Source of the DNA: Amycolatopsis jejuensis
GTDB lineage: Bacteria; Actinomycetota; Actinomycetes; Mycobacteriales; Pseudonocardiaceae
Length of the DNA stretch: 64,000 bases
Assembly (NCBI RefSeq): GCF_000717335.1
Contig: NZ_JNYZ01000050.1
Location: 1-64,000, forward strand
Reading direction: 5' to 3'
Shown: in pieces, positions 3,561-12,829 of the stretch
Layout of the letters: the number at the start of each line of letters is the position of its first letter
Position numbering within the stretch: the first letter of the stretch is position 1
Notes under the pieces: model-generated
Databases searched by the model: none
What the model was told of the DNA's origin: nothing
The model's input: the letters and a program-made list of their open reading frames with translations, nothing else
Made by a program: the position numbers and the translations under genes

Positions 3561-4292
3561 CTAACCTCGTCCGATGAAAGGCATGGTAGTAGCGGTCACC
3601 GACAAAAACTGGACGTTGGCCTCCAGCGGCAGCCCGGCCATGTAGCGGACGGCGTCGGCGACATGCGAAGCGTCGAAGGTCGGCTCGGGGCGCACTGAGC
3701 CGTCGGCTTGGCGAGCGCCGGTGGCGATCCCAGCGGTGAGATCCGTGGCGGCGTTGCCGATATCGATCTGCCCGCAGGCAATCCCGAAGGGGCGACCGTC
3801 CAGTGACAACGACTTCGTCAAACCCGTCATCGCATGTTTCGTTGCAGTGTAGGCAATACTACCCGGCCGCGGGCTGTGCGCCGAGATCGAGCCGTTGTTG
3901 ATGATCCGCCCGCCGCGGGGATCCTGCCGTCGCATTACGCCGAAAGCTGCGCGGGCGCAGAGGAACGCGCCCGTCAGGTTGGTGTCCACACAGGACTGCC
4001 AGGCATCCACCGGGATCTCGTCCGGCAAGCCCGCAGGACCGAAGACCCCGGCATTGTTCACCAGCACATCGACCCGTCCCCAGGCAGCTGTCACCTGGTC
4101 GAACAACGCGGTGACCGAATCCGGATCCGCCACATCCGCAGGCACGACCAACGCTCCCGACTCCCCGGCCGTTTCCGCCAAGGCCGACGCGCGGCGACCG
4201 GCGAGCGCGACCTGGTACCCGTCGTCCAGCATGGCCCTGGCAATGACCCGGCCCAGGCCGCTGCCTGCGCCGGTGACCACCGCGACTGTCAT
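3561..4292 (-). CDS. SDR-family NAD(P)-dependent oxidoreductase
   Basis: A 243-residue classical short-chain dehydrogenase. It shows the Rossmann TGAGSGLG motif (residues 7-14), NNAG (79-82) and the catalytic Ser135, Tyr148 and Lys152 (YTATK). The start at 4292 is supported by AGGAGGG five to seven bases upstream; the frame is open further upstream but without a site. It is the last gene of the minus-strand operon, 10 bp after the dehydratase. Role inferred: oxidation or reduction of a hydroxyl or keto group on the acid handled by the operon. Substrate is not recognisable from sequence. Confidence 0.88.
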
Positions 4293-4302
4293 GAAACCCT
4301 CC

Positions 4303-6015
4303 TCAGTGGTTGTCGCCGTGCACGGCAGACCCACGCCGGCCGCGGAGGAAATCGAAGTCCGCGCCCTGGTCCGCCTGGCTCACATGATCCACGTACAGCT
4401 TCTGGTACCCGCTGCCGACCACCGGTTCCGGCGGCTTCCAGTCCGCCCGCCGCCGCGCAAGTTCCACCGCCGGCACGTCCAGATGCAGCCTCCGGGCGGC
4501 CACGTCCAGCTCGATGAAGTCCCCATCGCGGACCAGCGCGAGCGGTCCCCCGGCGGCCGACTCCGGCGCGACGTGCAGTACCACCGTGCCGAAGGCGGTC
4601 CCGCTCATCCGGGCGTCGGAGATCCGCACGAGATCGGTGATTCCCTGCCGCAGCAGAGATTTCGGCAGCGGCAGGTTGCCGACCTCCGGCATGCCCGGGT
4701 ACCCCCGCGGCCCGGCCCCGGTCAGGACCAGCACCGAATCCGCGTCAACCACCAAGTCCGGATCGTCGATGCGCGCGCGGAAATCGTCCATTCCGTGGAA
4801 CACCACCGCGCGACCCCGGTGCGTCATCAACCGGGCACTGGCAGCGGACGGCTTGATCACCGCGCCGTCCGGAGCCAGGTTCCCGCGCAGTACAGCCGTT
4901 CCCGCATCCTGGGCCAGCGGTTCCGCAAGGCTCCGGATCACCGAACCGTCGGGATCGGGTGCATCCGCTACGTTCTCCCCGAGCGACAAGCCCGTCACCG
5001 TCAACGCATCGCGATGCAGAAGGTCCCCGAGTGCCCGCAGTACCACCGGGACTCCGCCCGCGGTGAAGAAGTCCTCCATCAGGAACCGGCCCGACGGCAC
5101 GAGGTCCACCAGCAGCGGCACCGACCGCCCGAGCGCGTCGATGTCGGCCAACGACAACGGGACTTCCGCCCGTCCGGCCAGCGCCAGCAGGTGGATCACC
5201 GCATTCGTCGACCCGCCGATGGCCGCATTCACCTTCACCGCGTTCTCGAACGCCGCGCGAGTGAGCACTGTGGACAGTCGCAGCTCCTCGTGCACCATCT
5301 CCACCGCACGGGCACCGGCGTCCCGCGCCAGCACGCGCCGCCGGGAGTCGACCGCGGGCAACGCGGCATTGCCCGGCAGCGCGACCCCCAGCGCCTCGGT
5401 GATCGCGGCCATCGTGGACGCCGTACCCATCGTGTTGCAGTGCCCGGCCGACCGCGACATACACGATTCCGCCGCCCGGAAGTCCGCCTCGCTCATCCGC
5501 CCGGCGCGGACGTCCTCGGACATCGCGAACATGTCGGTACCGGACCCGAGTGCCCGGCCGCGGAACCGCCCGGTCAGCATCGGCCCGCCGGACACGACGA
5601 TCGACGGCAGGTCCGCGCTCGCCGCACCCATCAGCAACGCGGGCGTGGTCTTGTCGCACCCGCACAGCAGCACGACGCCATCGAGCGGATTGGCCCGGAT
5701 GGACTCTTCGACGTCCATGCTGACCAGGTTCCGGAACAACATCGACGTGGGCCGCAGAATCGTTTCCCCCAGCGACATCACCGGGAATTCCACCGGCAGC
5801 CCGCCCGCCTCGCGCACCCCGCGCTTGACGTGCCCGGCCAGTTCGCGGAAATGCGCATTGCACGGCGTCAGCTCGGAATAGGTATTGCAGATCCCGATCA
5901 CCGGACGGCCGTCGAAATCGCGGTCGGTGAGCCCCTGGTTCTTCATCCACGAACGCGCGATGAACCCGTTGACGCCGGTGCCGCCGAACCAGTCCTGCGA
6001 CCGCCGCGCACTCAT
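4303..6015 (-). CDS. IlvD/Edd-family sugar-acid dehydratase
   Basis: A 570-residue iron-sulfur dehydratase. The three cluster cysteines are visible in ICNTYSEL (Cys43), CGCDKTTPA and [13 protein letters not shown], and the catalytic serine loop [14 protein letters not shown] is near the C-terminus. Length and motif spacing resemble the L-arabinonate/D-xylonate-type branch rather than biosynthetic dihydroxyacid dehydratase; that subfamily call is from memory of the family. The reaction would convert a 2,3-dihydroxy acid to a 2-keto-3-deoxy acid. It overlaps the upstream BKACE gene by 4 bp and precedes the SDR by 10 bp, so the three are almost certainly co-translated. Location is cytoplasmic. 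Confidence 0.88.
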
Positions 6016-6878
6016 GCCAGCCCCAGTATCTCGCGGGCCTGCGCCGGGGTCGCGGGCTCGTCACCTCGGCCGCGGATGAGCGCGACGACCCGTTCCACCT
6101 GCTCCACATTGGACATCGGACGGCCGTCCGCGCCGAACGGGCTGTCCTCGATCCCGACCCGGACGTGGCCGCCCAGATCGAGCGCGTCGGTCAACCCGGG
6201 CAACGGATCCGGGCCGCACACCGTCGCGGAAAACACCGCACCCTCCGGCAGCAGCGAGACGAGACTGCGCAGAATTGACGGGGTGTACGGCAAGGCGTTC
6301 TGAAAAATCCGATGCTGATTCAGGACCAGATTCACAATGTACGGAGCCCGGTCGAATTCGAGCAGCGAAGGGAAATCAGCAATCAGATTTGCGTGATTGA
6401 AGACCTCCCATTCCGGTTTCGCGCCGACCTCACGGAACGTTTCCGCAAGCCGCCGCGCGAACGACCGCGGCGTGCTCATCAAGACCTCGCCGTCCGGGCC
6501 GTCGACATACGCGGTGATCGTGTCCAAGGTGCAGGTGTCGGCGCCGCCGAACGCACCGGCCAGCCGTTCCTCGTGGTCGACGACCTTCCCCCGCCCGGTC
6601 TCGCGGACCAGGTCGCCGTTGATGCCGCCACCGGTGGAGTGGTTGATCACCACGTCACAGCGGTCCAGCACGAGCTTGGTCATCGAGCGGTAGACCTCCG
6701 GGTCGCAGGTCGCCGCCTGGTCCGGCCGACGCGCGTGCAGCGCCGCAACACTCGCCCCCGCCGCAACGCATCGAGCCACGTCGGCAGCAATTTCACCGGG
6801 TTGAGTCGGCACGTACGGGTGCTGCGCGGAGGTCAGCATGCCGCCGGTCGGCGCAACGGTGACGATCACGGGCCTCAT
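6012..6878 (-). CDS. BKACE (DUF849) beta-keto acid cleavage enzyme, paralog 1
   Basis: A 288-residue TIM-barrel protein of the BKACE family, which condenses a beta-keto acid with acetyl-CoA and splits it into acetoacetate and a new acyl-CoA. Family signatures include the N-terminal PVIVTVAPTGG, VINHSTGGG and LGGHVRVGIEDSPFG. The zinc site is altered: the usual HxH (His46/His48 in the characterised enzyme Kce) reads Ala46-Leu-His48, while the glutamate ligand (Glu244, in GIEDS) is kept. The second BKACE of this operon has the opposite pattern. Overlaps of 4 bp on both sides show tight coupling to the dehydratase and DhaL. Activity is uncertain because of the missing histidine. Confidence 0.85.
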   Translation of the reverse strand: MRPVIVTVAPTGGMLTSAQHPYVPTQPGEIAADVARCVAAGASVAALHARRPDQAATCDPEVYRSMTKLVLDRCDVVINHSTGGGINGDLVRETGRGKVVDHEERLAGAFGGADTCTLDTITAYVDGPDGEVLMSTPRSFARRLAETFREVGAKPEWEVFNHANLIADFPSLLEFDRAPYIVNLVLNQHRIFQNALPYTPSILRSLVSLLPEGAVFSATVCGPDPLPGLTDALDLGGHVRVGIEDSPFGADGRPMSNVEQVERVVALIRGRGDEPATPAQAREILGLA

Positions 6879-7471
6879 GCGCTCGTCACCTGCGCACCGG
6901 CCGCGAAGAACAGCGCAACAGTCCGCGCACCCGGATCGACGACCCCGACCGCGTGCTCGCCGACGTAACTGGCCCGGCCCCGCCGCGCGACGAGGTCCTT
7001 TGTGGACTCCGCGCCCTGCAGAGCGGCCGCAGCGGCCCGGTCTAAAGCTTCGTCGAGCGGTCCACCGGCTGCCAACGCCGAAGCAGCCGGGACCATCGCG
7101 TCGACCATCGTCTTGTGCCCGACCTCGGCCTTTCCCAGGCGCTGCACGGTAGCGGCGCCGCGGGCCGCGCCCTCAGCCAAACCGGCGGTCGTCAACTCAG
7201 CCCCGACCGAACGGCCCAGCTCCCGGAACCACATGCCGAACAACGGTCCGCTGGTACCACCGGTAGCCAGGAACCCGTCGGACACCGCGAGCAGGACGCC
7301 ACCCGGAGTGTCCGGCTTGGTCGCCTGCAACGCCTTTTCCGCGCGCTGTACAGCGGAGGTGAGGTTGTCGCCGTAGTCGCCGTCCCCGGCGAGCCGGTCG
7401 GCGTCGGCCAGCCCGGCGGCGTGTTCGCGGACCGACGCGGCAAAGGCCTCGATCCAGTGCTGAGCAGTCAT
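6875..7471 (-). CDS. dhaL: DhaL-type kinase subunit (ADP/ATP-binding)
   Basis: A 198-residue all-helical nucleotide-binding subunit of dihydroxyacetone-type kinases. The Mg-ADP motif LAGDGDYGDNL (about residues 28-38), GGTSGPLFG, GHKTMVDA and the C-terminal GRASYVGEHAVGVVDPGA are all present. ATG at 7471 is used since the family begins close to this point; the frame extends to 7486 without support. It overlaps the BKACE gene by 4 bp and follows dhaK by 11 bp. No DhaM phosphotransferase subunit is seen in the window, so the pair probably uses ATP directly, as tetrulose kinases of this type do. Substrate inferred to be a keto-sugar or keto-acid fragment from the operon's pathway. Confidence 0.9.
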   Translation of the reverse strand: MTAQHWIEAFAASVREHAAGLADADRLAGDGDYGDNLTSAVQRAEKALQATKPDTPGGVLLAVSDGFLATGGTSGPLFGMWFRELGRSVGAELTTAGLAEGAARGAATVQRLGKAEVGHKTMVDAMVPAASALAAGGPLDEALDRAAAAALQGAESTKDLVARRGRASYVGEHAVGVVDPGARTVALFFAAGAQVTSA

Positions 7472-7482
7472 GGAAACTCCGT

Positions 7483-8469
7483 TCACCAGGTCAGGGCCGG
7501 GGTGCGCACCGGCGCGTCCCAGCGGTCGACGAACTCGGCCGGGGCGCGGACGAGGGTGATCGAGCAGCCCTTCATGTCGAGCGCGGTCACGTACGAGCCG
7601 ACCAGCGCCCGCGCAACCACGATGTCCCGCGCAGCCAGGAACGAGACCAGTTCCTCATGCGCGACCGCCAGTTCCAGGCCATGCGTGGCCCCGAGGCCGT
7701 TGACCAGCGCAATCACCTTCTCGCCCGCGGCCAGGCCGAGCGCGTCGACCACCGGTTCGGCAAGCTGCGCGACCAGTTCCGCCGCCGGAGCCGCCTTCCG
7801 TACCTCGATCCCCCGCTCGCCGTGGATGCCGACGCCGAACTCGATCTCGTCCGGCCCGAGCTCGAACGCCGGACGGTCCCGTCCCGGCGCAGTGCAAGCT
7901 GTGAACGCGAGCGCCAACGTACGCGCCGACGCGGCAACCCGGGTTGCGATGTCCGCAACAGCGTCGAGGTCCGCACCCGCTTCCGCCGCGGCACCGGCGA
8001 TCTTCTCCACTGCTACTACAGCTGCCGTGCCGCGGCGACCAGGGCCGTCGGCGCTGTCGGTCGCGAGATCGTCGGCGACCAGGACGGTGCGCACGTCGAT
8101 GCCGTCTTCTGCAGCGAGCTCCGCCGCAATACTGAAATTCAGGACATCGCCCGTGTAGTTCTTGACCACCAGCAGCACGCCTCGCCCCCGGTCAGCAGCG
8201 CGCACCGCGGCCCGGATCTGCGCGGCCGTCGGACTCGCGAAGACCGCGCCGGGCACCGCGGCGTCGAGCATTCCCGCGCCGACGAACCCGGTGTGCAGCG
8301 GCTCGTGCCCCGACCCGCCACCGGACACCAACGCCACCTTCGCCGCCGGGTTCGCCCGCACGACGTAACCCGGATCGGGCTCGTACCGGATCAGCCCGGC
8401 GTGCGCACGGGCGAACCCGGCCAATGCCTCGGCGACGAACCCAGCCGGTTCGTTGAACAACGCCGTCAT
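7483..8469 (-). CDS. dhaK: DhaK-type kinase subunit (substrate-binding)
   Basis: A 328-residue substrate subunit. It contains SGGGSGHEPLHTGFVG (about 49-64), KNYTGDVLNFSIAAE (103-117) and the catalytic histidine His216 in GVGIHGERG, which forms a hemiaminal with the carbonyl of dihydroxyacetone-like substrates. Length is normal. The start at 8469 overlaps the stop of the upstream small gene by 4 bp (ATGA). The neighbours (two BKACEs, a sugar-acid dehydratase) suggest a substrate other than glycerol-derived dihydroxyacetone, for example a tetrulose or a keto acid-derived triose; this is inference. Confidence 0.92.
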   Translation of the reverse strand: MTALFNEPAGFVAEALAGFARAHAGLIRYEPDPGYVVRANPAAKVALVSGGGSGHEPLHTGFVGAGMLDAAVPGAVFASPTAAQIRAAVRAADRGRGVLLVVKNYTGDVLNFSIAAELAAEDGIDVRTVLVADDLATDSADGPGRRGTAAVVAVEKIAGAAAEAGADLDAVADIATRVAASARTLALAFTACTAPGRDRPAFELGPDEIEFGVGIHGERGIEVRKAAPAAELVAQLAEPVVDALGLAAGEKVIALVNGLGATHGLELAVAHEELVSFLAARDIVVARALVGSYVTALDMKGCSITLVRAPAEFVDRWDAPVRTPALTW

Positions 8470-8870
8470 GCCGCCGCCTCCTCGAAGAAACGCGCGATCG
8501 CCGCCTGCACCGGGTCTCCGACCCGCAACCCCGCCGCGCGTCCGGCTTCGTTGACGTGGGTGAGCACGCCGTTCTCCCACATGTCGCGCGCGTCGCTGAT
8601 CCGCGCGGTGAAATGGCCGACCGCCGCGCCCGCGATCCCGGCCTGGTCCATGATCGCCAGCCCGGCGATTCCCGCGCCGTCCTTGCCGCCCCCGGCGTCG
8701 TTGAAGACCGCGCAGGCACAACCGCACCGCACCGCGACCCGCCCGGATTCCGCGCCGCCGTTGGACGCCGCGACCAGGATCTGGTCGTGGTCCTCGTATT
8801 CGGCCTGCGACATGCTGTCCACCAGAATCACCCGGCGGCCCCGCTGTTCGGCCACCACTTCCCTCAACAT
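8466..8870 (-). CDS. Unknown protein, paralog A of a tandem pair
   Basis: A 134-residue cytoplasmic protein I cannot assign to a named family. It is clearly homologous to the next upstream gene: both share a GG dipeptide in ASNGG/GSHGG, then NDAG.GKD.AG..GLA..D, AVGH.TARI.D..D.WE.G and a terminal ..AAGL.VG. This copy has additional cysteines (RCGCACAVF). ATG at 8870 has GGGGG five bases upstream; ATG at 8882 is an alternative with a weaker site. It overlaps dhaK by 4 bp and the paralog by 7 bp, so the two are probably made in equal amounts and may form a heteromer. An enzyme subunit acting on the kinase or BKACE substrate is possible, but nothing shows it directly. Confidence 0.7.
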   Translation of the reverse strand: MLREVVAEQRGRRVILVDSMSQAEYEDHDQILVAASNGGAESGRVAVRCGCACAVFNDAGGGKDGAGIAGLAIMDQAGIAGAAVGHFTARISDARDMWENGVLTHVNEAGRAAGLRVGDPVQAAIARFFEEAAA

Positions 8871-9292
8871 CCGTGCCCCCATTCCGTCGCCAGCCGGGTG
8901 AACGCCTCGGCCAGCGGCTCCCCGACCTGCACGCCCGCGGCCAGCGCCGCCCGGTTGGCGTAGCTGACAATCCCGCTTTCCCAGGTGTCCGGCCCGTCGC
9001 CGATCCGCGCGGTTTCGTGCCCGACGGCCACCCCCACCACGTCGTCGAGCGCCGCCAGCCCGGCCACCCCGGCGTCGTCCTTGCCGATCCCGGCGTCGTT
9101 GCAGGCGACCGCGGCGACCCGGCCGCGGCGGGCGTACTCGCCCGCGCTGGCCCCGCCGTGCGACCCGGTGACGATGAGCTGTCCGGCATGTTCGGCGGAC
9201 GCGAAGGCGACGGAATCCATCACCGCCACAATCAGCTCGCCGCGCCGGACGACCGTGCGCACCGGTCCACCGTGGTCATCGACCACCCGCAT
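8864..9292 (-). CDS. Unknown protein, paralog B of a tandem pair
   Basis: A 142-residue protein, homologous along its length to the downstream neighbour. Visible conserved features are TGSHGGASAGEYARRG, ACNDAGIGKDDAGVAGL, GVAVGHETARIGD and TWESGIVSYAN. The polar, invariant Asn-Asp-Ala-Gly, Lys-Asp and Thr-Ala-Arg-Ile positions shared by both copies look like an active or binding site. ATG at 9292 is preceded by AGAGGAG at good spacing. It overlaps the second BKACE gene by 17 bp and the other paralog by 7 bp. No signal peptide or membrane segment. No function is claimed. Confidence 0.7.
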   Translation of the reverse strand: MRVVDDHGGPVRTVVRRGELIVAVMDSVAFASAEHAGQLIVTGSHGGASAGEYARRGRVAAVACNDAGIGKDDAGVAGLAALDDVVGVAVGHETARIGDGPDTWESGIVSYANRAALAAGVQVGEPLAEAFTRLATEWGHGC

Positions 9293-10157
9293 GAATACTG
9301 CTCCTCTCCAAGAGAATCTGCCGCGCCTGATCCGTGGTCGCGACCTCGCGACCGACCTGCTTCGCCACGGCAACGACGTGCTCGACCAGCTCGGCGTTCG
9401 TCGGGAAACCCCGTGCGGCATGCGCAAAGTCGCCGACCCCGATCGCGATGTGCCCGCCGAGCCGGATCACTTCCTCCGCGGTCTCAAGGACGTCGGCCCG
9501 GTGCGCGGACACGATCCACGCCAGGTTTTCGCGCTCCGGCAGGAATTCCACGTGCGCGCGGAGCCCCGCCGACGTCGCCGGATGGGCCGCGGGGAACTCC
9601 GGACCGCCGAGCACGAACTGCAGAACTGCCGGACCCAGCACCTCCCCGGCGGCGAGATGCGCGGCGATCGTCCGCGTCCAGCTGACGTTGAACGACGCCA
9701 GCCACGGCGTGAAACCTTCGCGCCGCGCACAAGCGAACAATGCGCGGTGCGTCTCAGTACTGTTGACGAAAACCTTGTCCGCACTGGAAAACTGCTGTCG
9801 GTGCGGGTCCCACAGGTCCATGATCGCGCAACCCATGTCCATGGTCAGGAACTCGGGCTTGGCCGCCAGAGCCGGTGCCAGCCGCTGTTCCACGGAAAAT
9901 CCCGGGCCGTTCGCGAGTGACGGGGCGAGCAGGACGTCGCACCGCTCCCGGATCAGCCGGGCGGTCTCGCGGTAGCCTTCCGGACGATGATCCGGCGCGC
10001 CGTCCGGCATCCGGGCGTGGTAGTGCACCACGGACGCACCCGCGGCCGCGCAAGCCGCGACGTCCTCGGCGATTTCCTGCGGTGACCACGGGACGTGCGG
10101 ATTGTCGTCGCGCATCATGTTCTCGTTCGGGTGCACCCCGATCACCAGCGGGGTCAC
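9276..10157 (-). CDS. BKACE (DUF849) beta-keto acid cleavage enzyme, paralog 2
   Basis: A 293-residue BKACE-family protein, distant from paralog 1. The zinc histidines are intact in VVHYHARMPDG (His45, His47), but the segment that normally reads GLED in the family reads GVGD here (Gly242 in place of the glutamate ligand). Other landmarks are IRLGGHIAIG and the TNAELVEHVV helix. The GTG start at 10157 has GGGGGAG six to seven bases upstream and overlaps the SDR stop by 4 bp. The two BKACE copies therefore each lack a different zinc ligand, which suggests divergence in function or hetero-oligomer formation rather than simple redundancy. Confidence 0.82.
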   Translation of the reverse strand: MTPLVIGVHPNENMMRDDNPHVPWSPQEIAEDVAACAAAGASVVHYHARMPDGAPDHRPEGYRETARLIRERCDVLLAPSLANGPGFSVEQRLAPALAAKPEFLTMDMGCAIMDLWDPHRQQFSSADKVFVNSTETHRALFACARREGFTPWLASFNVSWTRTIAAHLAAGEVLGPAVLQFVLGGPEFPAAHPATSAGLRAHVEFLPERENLAWIVSAHRADVLETAEEVIRLGGHIAIGVGDFAHAARGFPTNAELVEHVVAVAKQVGREVATTDQARQILLERSSIHAGGR

Positions 10158-10897
10158 GGTTTCTCCCCCAGCCGCCAGCCGGGTCCGGCGGTCTGACCGC
10201 CGTCGACGCACCAGGTCTGCCCGGTGACGAACGTCGACTCCGAACCGGCCAGAAACGCGATCACCGCAGCGATTTCCTCGGTGTGTGCGTACCGGCCGAG
10301 CGGAATCGAGGCGACCACGGCGTCACGTACCGCCGGAGGTTGGGCGACCCGGACGAGCGGCGTGTCGGTCGCTCCCGGTGCCACGCAGTTCGCCCGGATC
10401 CCGGCCGGACCGAGCTCTCCCGCGAGCACCTGGGTCAGCGCCAGCACCCCGCCTTTCGACGACGCGTACCCCGCCCGCTGCTCACCGCCGCGCAGCCCGG
10501 ACACCGACGAGATCGTGACCAGCGACCCGCCGGCTCCGCGTTGAAGCATCACTCGCGCGGCGGCCCGGCACACCAGGAAAGTGCCGGTCAGGTTGACGTC
10601 CAACGACCGCCGGAAATCCGCCAAGGTCGTTTCCGTCACCGGCGCATTGCGGACGACCCCGGCGCAGGTGACCACCGCACCAAGCCCGTCGCCGAGCCGA
10701 TCCGCCGCCTCGACAGCCGCGTCGACCTGCGTTTCGTCGGTGACGTCAGCCAGCACCGGCGTGATCCGCTCGTCCTCCGGCAGCGCGTCCGTATTCCGAT
10801 CGACGGCCACGACATGCCAGCCTTCGCGATGCAGCCGGTGTACCGTCGCCAGCCCGATCCCCGACGCCCCGCCGGTCACCACCACCGACCGGCTCAT
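10154..10897 (-). CDS. SDR-family oxidoreductase (FabG-like)
   Basis: A 247-residue classical short-chain dehydrogenase/reductase. It has TGGASGIG near the N-terminus (residues 8-15), a CAG in place of NNAG (VVTCAGVV), the catalytic serine in ISSVSG and the Tyr/Lys pair in YASSKGG. The C-terminus ends in the usual TGQTWCVDGG. It lies between the VOC gene and the second BKACE with 4-bp overlaps at both ends. It probably oxidises a hydroxy acid to the beta-keto acid that a BKACE could cleave, or performs the reverse; this is inference from context. Confidence 0.9.
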   Translation of the reverse strand: MSRSVVVTGGASGIGLATVHRLHREGWHVVAVDRNTDALPEDERITPVLADVTDETQVDAAVEAADRLGDGLGAVVTCAGVVRNAPVTETTLADFRRSLDVNLTGTFLVCRAAARVMLQRGAGGSLVTISSVSGLRGGEQRAGYASSKGGVLALTQVLAGELGPAGIRANCVAPGATDTPLVRVAQPPAVRDAVVASIPLGRYAHTEEIAAVIAFLAGSESTFVTGQTWCVDGGQTAGPGWRLGEKP

Positions 10898-11439
10898 GAC
10901 TGTCCGCCCAGGAGACTCCGCATGTCCCGGACCGGATCGGTGCCGTCCCAGCCCTCGGCCGCGGCGGCCACCGCACGGAACAACGCACCCTTCGCACCAC
11001 AGGTCTCGGAAAGTTCGATCATCGTGCCCGGATGCTGTTCGGCGGCGAAGTACACGAACCGTTCGTCCGGCGCGCCGCTGCCGGAGCAGCCTTCCTGCAA
11101 CACGGTGAGGCCGCGGCGTCCGGCCTCTCGCATGGCCGTGTCGAACTCGTCAGTCCAAAACGCAATGTGCTGCAACCCTTCCCGGCCGAATTCGGTGAAC
11201 GCCGACGGCGCGTCGTTCAACGGCTGGATCAGCTCGATCTGGATGCCACCGCTCTGCGCGAGGGCGACGCTGATCCGGGCGTCGCTGGGCTCGCCGCGGA
11301 AGCGGAATCCGTTGAGCGGCTGGTCGTCGACCACGAAAAAGGGACCCACCCCGATCACGTCCGTCCAGTGCCGCACCGCGCGGTGCAGATCCTCGACGAC
11401 GTAACCGTTCTGCCGGATCGGCCCGAACGCGGCGCTCAT
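10894..11439 (-). CDS. VOC-superfamily metalloprotein
   Basis: A 181-residue vicinal-oxygen-chelate protein with an N-terminal GYVVEDLHRAVRHW strand-helix, EGLQHIAFWTDEFD in the middle and a metal-type glutamate in GTMIELSE near the end. VOC members include lyases, isomerases and dioxygenases. The start at 11439 overlaps the transporter stop by 4 bp, and the end overlaps the SDR by 4 bp, so it belongs to the pathway. It may be an isomerase or lactoyl-lyase-like enzyme on a keto-sugar acid; specific reaction not known. Confidence 0.82.
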   Translation of the reverse strand: MSAAFGPIRQNGYVVEDLHRAVRHWTDVIGVGPFFVVDDQPLNGFRFRGEPSDARISVALAQSGGIQIELIQPLNDAPSAFTEFGREGLQHIAFWTDEFDTAMREAGRRGLTVLQEGCSGSGAPDERFVYFAAEQHPGTMIELSETCGAKGALFRAVAAAAEGWDGTDPVRDMRSLLGGQS

Positions 11440-12743
11440 GCCGCCGCCCGCCGGTTCAGCCGCTTGAGGCCGAGGATCACGAGCGAAGCAATGGTCATCG
11501 CGACGGCGAACGAGCCGATCGCGAGGCCGTACCCGCCGGTCGCGTCCTTGAGCAGCCCGGCGACCTGCGGTCCGAAGTAGCCGCCGAGGTTGCCCAGCCC
11601 GTTGATCACGCCGAATCCGGCCGCGAGCGCGGCACCGGTCAGGAAGCTCGCCGGGATCGTGATGAACACGCCCATCGCGGTGTACAGCCCGACCCCGGCG
11701 ATGCAGAACCCGACGATGGCGAGCGCAGGCGTCGACAACGACAGCGCAGCCAGCAGGAACCCGGCGGCAGCCACGAGCGCGGCAATGCAGAAGTGCACAC
11801 CCCGTTCGCGGGTGCGGTCCGAATGCCGCATCCACCAGATCATCGGGCCGATCGCGATCAGCGGCGGCAGCGCAGCCACCCAGCCGACCGACTGCGTGCT
11901 CAGGCCGAAGCTCTTCAGCATCTGCGCAATCCACAGCTGGTACCCGTTGAGGCTGAACGTCACGCAGAGGAACACCACGATCAGCAGCAGCACCCGCGGT
12001 TCGGCCAGGCCACGCCGGAACGCGCCGGGCCCGTGCCCGACGGCGTCCTTCGACTCGTCGGCGAGTACCTTCGTCAGCCAGTTCCGCTCGGGTTCGCTCA
12101 GGAAACCCGCCTCGGCCGGGGTGTCGCGCAGGCGGCGCAGGCACACGAACGCCAGCGCCACGGCCGGAATGCCGGTGATGATGAAGATCCACCGCCAGCC
12201 CGAAAGCCCGAGGAAGCCGTGCATGTCGAGGACGTGCGTCATCAGCGGCGTGCCGAGGCCCGAGATGCAGATGAACGTGACGATCCACGACATCGCCGCG
12301 CCTCGGCGGGCGTTGGGATACCAGCGGGAGACGAAGTACAGCATGCCGGGCGAGAAGCCCGCCTCGGCGACGCCGAGCAGCACGCGCATGATCGTCAGGC
12401 TGGTCTCGCCCTGCACGAACGCCGTGCCGATGGTGACGAGTCCCCAGGTCACCATGATGCGGGAAATCCACTTACGGGCGCCGACCCGGGAAAGCACCCA
12501 GTTGCTGGGCGGTTCCAGGATCGTGTAGCTCCAGAAGTAGATCCCGGCGGCGAACCCGTACGCGGTCGCCGAAATGCCGAGTTCGCTGTTCATCGTGAGC
12601 GCCGCGACGCCGATGTTCAGCCGGTCCAGGTACAGCACGATGTAACACAGGCCGACCAGCGGAAGGAAATGGCGCGTGACCTTCCGCAGCACCTGGTCCC
12701 CGTCGACCGCCGCCGCCGGAGCGGTCCGGTTGTGTCCGAGCAC
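11436..12743 (-). CDS. MFS transporter, anion:cation symporter type
   Basis: A 435-residue twelve-helix major facilitator transporter resembling the ACS family that carries hexuronates, tartrate and other organic acids: YLDRLNIGVAAL in helix 1, GVAEAGFSPGMLYFVSRWYP around helix 4-5, and a long cytoplasmic loop between helices 6 and 7. It is the first gene of the minus-strand operon. GTG at 12743 is used because GAGG lies eight bases upstream; GTG at 12752 in the same frame has no site. The palindromic operator at 12830-12848 lies 87 bp upstream. It most likely imports the acid substrate that the downstream enzymes degrade. Confidence 0.9.
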   Translation of the reverse strand: MLGHNRTAPAAAVDGDQVLRKVTRHFLPLVGLCYIVLYLDRLNIGVAALTMNSELGISATAYGFAAGIYFWSYTILEPPSNWVLSRVGARKWISRIMVTWGLVTIGTAFVQGETSLTIMRVLLGVAEAGFSPGMLYFVSRWYPNARRGAAMSWIVTFICISGLGTPLMTHVLDMHGFLGLSGWRWIFIITGIPAVALAFVCLRRLRDTPAEAGFLSEPERNWLTKVLADESKDAVGHGPGAFRRGLAEPRVLLLIVVFLCVTFSLNGYQLWIAQMLKSFGLSTQSVGWVAALPPLIAIGPMIWWMRHSDRTRERGVHFCIAALVAAAGFLLAALSLSTPALAIVGFCIAGVGLYTAMGVFITIPASFLTGAALAAGFGVINGLGNLGGYFGPQVAGLLKDATGGYGLAIGSFAVAMTIASLVILGLKRLNRRAAA

Positions 12744-12829
12744 GATATCCACCTCGATACATGCCGCAGGAATGAGTGAGCGCGCGCAGCGGTCATCATG
12801 AGCGGCGGCGCGGCGGGGTTCAATGCCGT

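Follow-up and report, generated by a model that had tools for sequence, protein, structure and literature searches.

A pair of DUF1805-like paralogues, probably heteromeric, is linked to two altered BKACE-family enzymes in Amycolatopsis jejuensis

What do two small, overlapping and mutually similar genes contribute to an operon that also encodes a DhaK/DhaL-type kinase and two BKACE-family enzymes? The question is raised by a locus of Amycolatopsis jejuensis (assembly GCF_000717335.1, contig NZ_JNYZ01000050.1, positions 1 to 64,000; this whole stretch of 64,000 nucleotides is the window below). An earlier note, made from the letters of the window alone, had singled out the two genes, here called B and A, as paralogues of no recognizable family and as candidates for an enzyme, perhaps of two subunits, acting on a keto-sugar acid. 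Here, we find that the pair belongs to a conserved DUF1805-like family, is probably heteromeric, and is tied to two altered BKACE-family enzymes. Because the pair adjoins two unusual BKACEs in quite different bacteria, it probably supplies a missing step in the breakdown of a sugar acid. The pair should make a good target for functional discovery; its reaction remains a guess.

8864..9292, minus strand: B, a DUF1805-like protein of 142 amino acids; open frame with a Shine-Dalgarno-like sequence (GGAGAGGAG) upstream, assigned by family membership and a structural model.
8466..8870, minus strand: A, the paralogue of B, 134 amino acids; carries the A-clade signature ASNGG (His replaced by Asn) and ISDA (Gly replaced by Ser).

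Both frames are open on the minus strand and overlap by 7 nucleotides, in agreement with the adjacent, overlapping genes of 134 and 142 codons described earlier; an in-frame ATG at 8882 offers an alternative start for A, which would lengthen it to 138 amino acids. B retains the full motif set (DS, GSHGG, NDAGIGK, ARIGDG, and N113). The homology between the two products that had been read from their translations was also recovered by alignment (45% identity over A residues 13 to 133; E = 4 × 10−25), and a query of the organism's own 10.1-Mb assembly with A matched the A and B loci only.

Neither A nor B gave a convincing match in Pfam, NCBIfam, or PDB sequences (A was used without its first Met in the Pfam, NCBIfam, and homologue searches), and both were left unmatched by DUF1805 (PF08827; gathering score of 29.5 bits) up to an E value of 1. 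Thus, the earlier statement that the proteins resemble no known family holds for direct searches. It does not hold for the wider comparison, in which A and B are members of a large uncharacterized family that grades into DUF1805 (YunC/TA1206). At E ≤ 1e-3, B retrieved 299 homologues and A retrieved 244, many more than chance would give, and the wider family comprised 4305 matches at this threshold among 7999 candidates scored. When the six relatives already marked with PF08827 were scored against DUF1805, four exceeded the gathering score (P0019, 40.9 bits; P0301, 35.8; P0339, 33.6; P0268, 30.2) and two fell below it (P0117, 26.8; P0255, 24.4). DUF1805 matched 48 of 138 family members at E ≤ 0.1, and 4 of the 120 listed matches carried the name "YunC (DUF1805 family)" given by a source. 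No DUF1805 match over the cutoff was found in 15 genomes of the loci, nor any at E ≤ 0.001 in the organism's own genome; in control genomes, DUF1805/YunC-type proteins were present in both bacteria and archaea.

The relationship extends to the fold. B was modelled with a predicted local distance difference test score (pLDDT) of 94.8, and the modelled folds matched TA1206 (PDB 1qw2), which we take to be the type structure of DUF1805, at 93 of 102 residues with a moderate Z score and 13 to 15% identity. The classical domain (PF08827; Bacillus subtilis YunC; Thermoplasma TA1206) differs in length, covering 64 positions compared to the 142 amino acids of B. According to its Pfam text, DUF1805 tetramerizes through an N-terminal beta-sheet; we found no function in print for the classical proteins. 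Across the 138-member alignment, G47, G68, G70, A74, G75, G107, and N113 are invariant, and S44, H45, N65, D66, A67, H92, A95, R96, I97, and G98 are among the positions conserved in at least 90% of members. The sequence blocks previously noticed as common to A and B are therefore family signatures, with W104 the weaker part (72% conserved). One other assignment, the IMS/Y-family polymerase model (PF00817), was tried and rejected: it scored B at 12.9 bits over 44 residues against a cutoff of 23.2 and gave nothing for A. The IMS model does pass its cutoff on two relatives, P0019 (36.6 bits, 69 residues) and P0301 (24.5 bits, 46 residues), where it is probably a misleading annotation. Y-family polymerases are far longer than proteins of 142 or about 270 amino acids.

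To place A and B within the family, we cut 109 domains out of 81 loci, namely the window and the 80 best of 375 confirmed loci, and built a tree from 107 of them, leaving out a short fragment (L068) and one half containing X residues (L074). A and B fell into separate clades of 11 rows each, with support of 100/94 and 100/95, respectively. In Inquilinus (L009) and Chelatococcus (L011), a single open reading frame encodes both domains, B first and A second, as in the order of the separate genes, and the matching halves of both fused genes lie within the B and A clades, respectively. The Chelatococcus fusion was modelled with a pLDDT of 92.9 and a predicted template modelling score (pTM) of 0.89 over 281 residues; two domains in free orientation would be expected to give a clearly lower pTM. 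The natural fusions and the confident two-domain model bear out the suggestion of a two-subunit protein, and B and A probably form a physical complex in A. jejuensis.

The alternative that A and B are separate homomeric enzymes, serving two similar steps or stereoisomers and adjacent through tandem duplication, would fit the single-domain relatives at 54 of the 70 non-A/B loci and the retention in A of Lys71 and Asp66 (25/25 sequences) and His92 (24/25). However, both fusions hold the same order and the same A and B signatures, and the fused model reaches the high pTM given above. Moreover, both halves occur at all 12 A/B loci with surroundings read, and the 8 A/B genomes searched whole contain exactly two family matches each, that is, one pair. 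We therefore consider independent homomers doubtful and retain a heteromer as the preferred arrangement. Elsewhere in the family, ten N-terminal and ten C-terminal halves of other fusions form supported clades of their own (98/91 and 96/96). Stella and Microvirga (L017 and L048) carry tandem pairs that are placed elsewhere in the tree. Repeated origins of pairing are therefore suggested, as judged from a tree with few columns and weak deep forks (29/57 at the root). One further locus (L103; G430:C1:1679859-1683245) has a back-to-back arrangement of two fused two-domain genes, giving four family domains in a row; these proteins are without several of the usual motif residues, and a similar four-domain cluster occurs in G538 (L098).

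Residues were counted with identical sequences taken once. Nearest identity served in part to sort the sequences into groups (25 A, 73 B, 165 N-halves and 164 C-halves of other fusions, and 164 single-domain proteins). Position 45 is Asn in all 25 A sequences and His in all 73 B sequences, and position 52 is Arg in 23/25 A and Glu in 71/73 B. Ser98 is present throughout A, and Arg96 is found in only 9 A sequences compared to 72 of the B sequences. The C-halves of other fusions keep His45 (163) and Arg96 (152), with Lys71 in 67 and His92 in 35; their N-halves have Lys or Arg at position 71 in 153 cases and His92 in 142. Thus, His45 is gone from A-type halves and Arg96 from many of them, and Lys71 and His92 are frequently missing from the C-halves of other fusions. 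That different lineages lose different residues in one half would fit a composite or one-sided active site.

We next compared gene neighborhoods within 10 kb at these 81 loci (11 A/B and 70 others, several of the latter short and with repeated relatives). BKACE genes were found at 10/11 A/B loci versus 2/70 other family loci, DhaK and DhaL at 9/11 versus 0/70, IlvD at 10/11 versus 6/70, VOC at 10/11 versus 0/70, and SDR at 11/11 versus 13/70. In Dactylosporangium (L007), the exception for BKACE, the genes BKACE1-DhaK-DhaL-BKACE2 are found about 14 kb off on the same contig, and in Inquilinus DhaK/DhaL lie about 11 kb from the pair in the same cluster. A twelfth genome, G138 (L113; G138:C1:3042500-3061500), a family-mate of that of the window, carries the compact operon MFS-VOC-SDR-BKACE1-B-A-BKACE2; the 19 kb read there contain neither DhaK/DhaL nor IlvD, and the nearest DhaK is about 218 kb away. 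Over the 12 A/B genomes with surroundings read, then, the BKACE pair is nearby in 12 and DhaK/DhaL in 11, so that the recurrence with BKACE or DhaK/DhaL proposed earlier as a check was indeed observed.

These counts separate the two kinds of partner. Since the BKACE pair is present in every case and the kinase is missing from one operon, the BKACEs are the firm partners, and the kinase is not obligatory for keeping the pair. Of the joint role with kinase and BKACE that had been put forward, the conserved linkage to both is upheld; the kinase is not a necessary partner. The emphasis on dhaK also implied that the pair might share a keto compound with DhaK/DhaL, acting on the kinase's substrate or product, an idea in keeping with the 4-nucleotide overlap between A and dhaK and with the frequency of DhaK/DhaL nearby; given the kinase-free operon of G138, we regard it as very unlikely. 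Within the order, the family was found in 2 of 200 genomes (the organism's own and G138) and in none of 7 congeners drawn, and within the phylum in 10 of 396 genomes, the organism's own included. Such rarity among relatives is as expected of an accessory catabolic island.

The two BKACE-family partners are themselves unusual.

9276..10157, minus strand: BKACE1 (PF05853), of a TIM-barrel family; HxH retained, ED changed to GD (Glu to Gly).
6012..6878, minus strand: BKACE2 (PF05853); ED retained, HxH changed at its first His (AALHARR).

Both pass PF05853 (201 and 203 bits, respectively; cutoff of 24.8). The HxH motif and ED pair of BKACEs have metal and catalytic roles, and the canonical set of Kce is incomplete in both proteins, each having lost a different conserved residue. 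In all 10 BKACE1 orthologues HxH is retained and GD stands in place of ED, and in all 10 BKACE2 orthologues ALH stands in place of HxH and ED is retained; BKACE1 and BKACE2 of G138 show the same changes. The best PDB sequence match of BKACE1 is the cis-epoxysuccinate hydrolase 5zmu (200 bits). As described in PMC6429283, Kce has three metal-coordinating residues, of which only two are conserved in the cis-epoxysuccinate hydrolase CESH[D]; there, Glu14 is the third metal ligand and D115, E190, and R11 are catalytic. In our alignment of BKACE1 with 5zmu, read by eye with provisional numbering, the presumed Glu14 and D115 are conserved and the presumed R11 and E190 are not, and for the latter reason we do not call BKACE1 a cis-epoxysuccinate hydrolase.

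The altered BKACEs bear on whether B/A is an enzyme at all. As an accessory or assembly partner of both BKACEs, stabilizing them or handing over an intermediate, or as a sensor of a pathway ligand, the pair would be expected beside BKACE1 and BKACE2, as in all 12 A/B genomes, and the loss of a family-conserved residue from each BKACE might reflect the need for a partner. Yet a BKACE is near only 2 of the 70 other family loci, and the conserved His/Lys/Asp/Arg set resembles an active site more than a docking surface. A nonenzymatic role is thus possible but the less probable one. We prefer an enzyme on a 3-oxo acid, since keto-acid chemistry is a theme shared by the surroundings of A/B and of some relatives. 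Known chemistry offers a parallel: the proposed oxidative route of 2-deoxyribonate catabolism runs through a 3-keto sugar acid, made by an SDR and cleaved by a BKACE (PMC6365646). That pathway consists of an SDR, a BKACE, a lactonase, and a glycerate kinase, and the first two are shared with the operon here; the passages of PMC6365646 on it are silent on DUF1805-like proteins, DhaK/DhaL, and a second BKACE.

Taken as a whole, our proposal is that a homo-oligomeric ancestor would have been duplicated, with B retaining all conserved polar residues and A diverging into a partner half, and that the two halves would then have fused in some proteobacteria. The operon would be an accessory route for a hydroxylated acid, imported by the MFS or a TRAP transporter, dehydrated by IlvD where present, oxidized by the SDR to a 3-oxo (beta-keto) acid, and cleaved at a C-C bond by the two atypical BKACE-family enzymes, with DhaK/DhaL, where present, phosphorylating a hydroxyketone product or serving a side branch. 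B/A would act between SDR and BKACE as a small cofactor-free enzyme on the 3-oxo acid via proton transfer, using candidate residues Ser-His (44-45), Asp66, Lys71, His92, and Arg96. A role on the operon's keto acid is rather likely, and the complete reading, one hetero-oligomeric DUF1805-like protein placed between SDR and BKACEs with the 3-oxo acid as its substrate, we hold to be evenly balanced. Weighing against it, many relatives have no keto-acid neighbor, and the surroundings of some look housekeeping-like. Among the candidate reactions, keto-enol isomerization or epimerization is the likeliest, and we suggest it tentatively. Hydrolysis or decarboxylation of an intermediate (by a lactonase, coenzyme A-ester hydrolase, or 3-oxo acid decarboxylase) could draw on the conserved Ser-His and Lys, and OiaX-like decarboxylases and metallo-beta-lactamase (MBL)-fold hydrolases do occur near relatives; nevertheless, these same enzymes supply other candidates in several of the clusters (OiaX-like at 11/70 other loci; MBL-fold near some A/B loci), making such a reaction for the pair unlikely.

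A broader extension of the isomerase or epimerase proposal is speculative, and we put it forward with low confidence: the family may be a widespread new class of small keto-acid enzymes that share the DUF1805 fold and need no cofactor. Their homo-oligomeric ancestor would repeatedly have given rise to heteromers with one composite active site, in which one half loses part of the residue set and its partner retains it, in this case between an SDR and BKACEs with complementary changes at their metal sites, in a new sugar-acid route. The pair, its recurring partners (SDR, two BKACE-type enzymes, and usually DhaK/DhaL), and the fusions together provide a narrow, testable setting for a branch of the DUF1805 superfamily. 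Identification of the substrate would describe a new sugar-acid route and give a functional lead transferable to thousands of relatives, some of which have keto-acid enzymes as neighbors.

B and A belong to a chain of ten genes in the order MFS, VOC, SDR, BKACE1, B, A, DhaK, DhaL, BKACE2, and IlvD, the remaining members of which are as follows.

11436..12752, minus strand: MFS transporter, with a homologue in locus L008.
10894..11439, minus strand: VOC (glyoxalase-like) protein, a conserved neighbor, named by reading the sequence.
10154..10897, minus strand: SDR dehydrogenase (adh_short_C2, 201.5 bits), candidate maker of the 3-oxo acid.
7483..8469, minus strand: DhaK-like kinase subunit; the GIHGE stretch of solved DhaK is retained.
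6875..7486, minus strand: DhaL-like kinase subunit (TIGR02365, 147 bits; cutoff of 138.3 passed).
4303..6015, minus strand: IlvD/EDD-type dehydratase (PRK06131, 897.5 bits; cutoff of 539).

Stop and start codons overlap by 4 nucleotides at MFS-VOC, VOC-SDR, SDR-BKACE1, A-DhaK, DhaK-DhaL, DhaL-BKACE2, and BKACE2-IlvD, by 17 at BKACE1-B, and by 7 at B-A, counted with GTG 10157 as our chosen start of BKACE1 (its longest frame begins at 10211). The overlaps point to coupled translation along the chain. The earlier note had coupled the pair to dhaK and to the second BKACE gene; the overlaps on both sides (A-DhaK and BKACE1-B) are there, and the coupling itself would follow from them. Its names for the neighbors agree with Pfam (Dak1, 390 bits; Dak2, 145; ILVD_EDD_N, 369; and the BKACE scores above). 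Because DhaK keeps the GIHGE stretch, which presumably has a substrate-binding role, the kinase, where present, is probably active on a hydroxyketone. The L008 homologue of the MFS transporter scored 306 bits with TIGR00893 (D-galactonate transporter subfamily), under the cutoff of 395. Directly downstream of the IlvD gene, a second SDR-like frame (3561-4334, minus strand) was recognized by reading the sequence.

Relatives of the pair also occur beside other keto-acid genes. Genes resembling those for OiaK, OiaX, or ApnO, enzymes of the apionate pathway, are near relatives at 15 of the 70 other loci and occur at none of the 11 A/B loci. In nine loci (L015, L027, L028, L042, L047, L052, L055, L059, and L074), a single-domain or fused relative lies near OiaK-like, OiaX-like (RuBisCO-like), and PGDH_C genes, the last named after their Pfam match and here called ApnO-like. 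Because one representative each of the OiaK-like (505.5 bits) and OiaX-like (445.4 bits) proteins missed the NCBIfam equivalog cutoff of 700 bits, these clusters are unproven as apionate clusters; possibly they represent a related but different acid-sugar route. Finally, thiamine diphosphate-type enzymes lie within 5 kb of relatives at 8 of the 70 other loci (L037, L044, L046, L053, L056, L064, L065, and L066; assigned by clustering, one of them checked with Pfam). Several of these relatives are two-domain proteins, and that of L065 also adjoins a transketolase/E1-beta-like gene.
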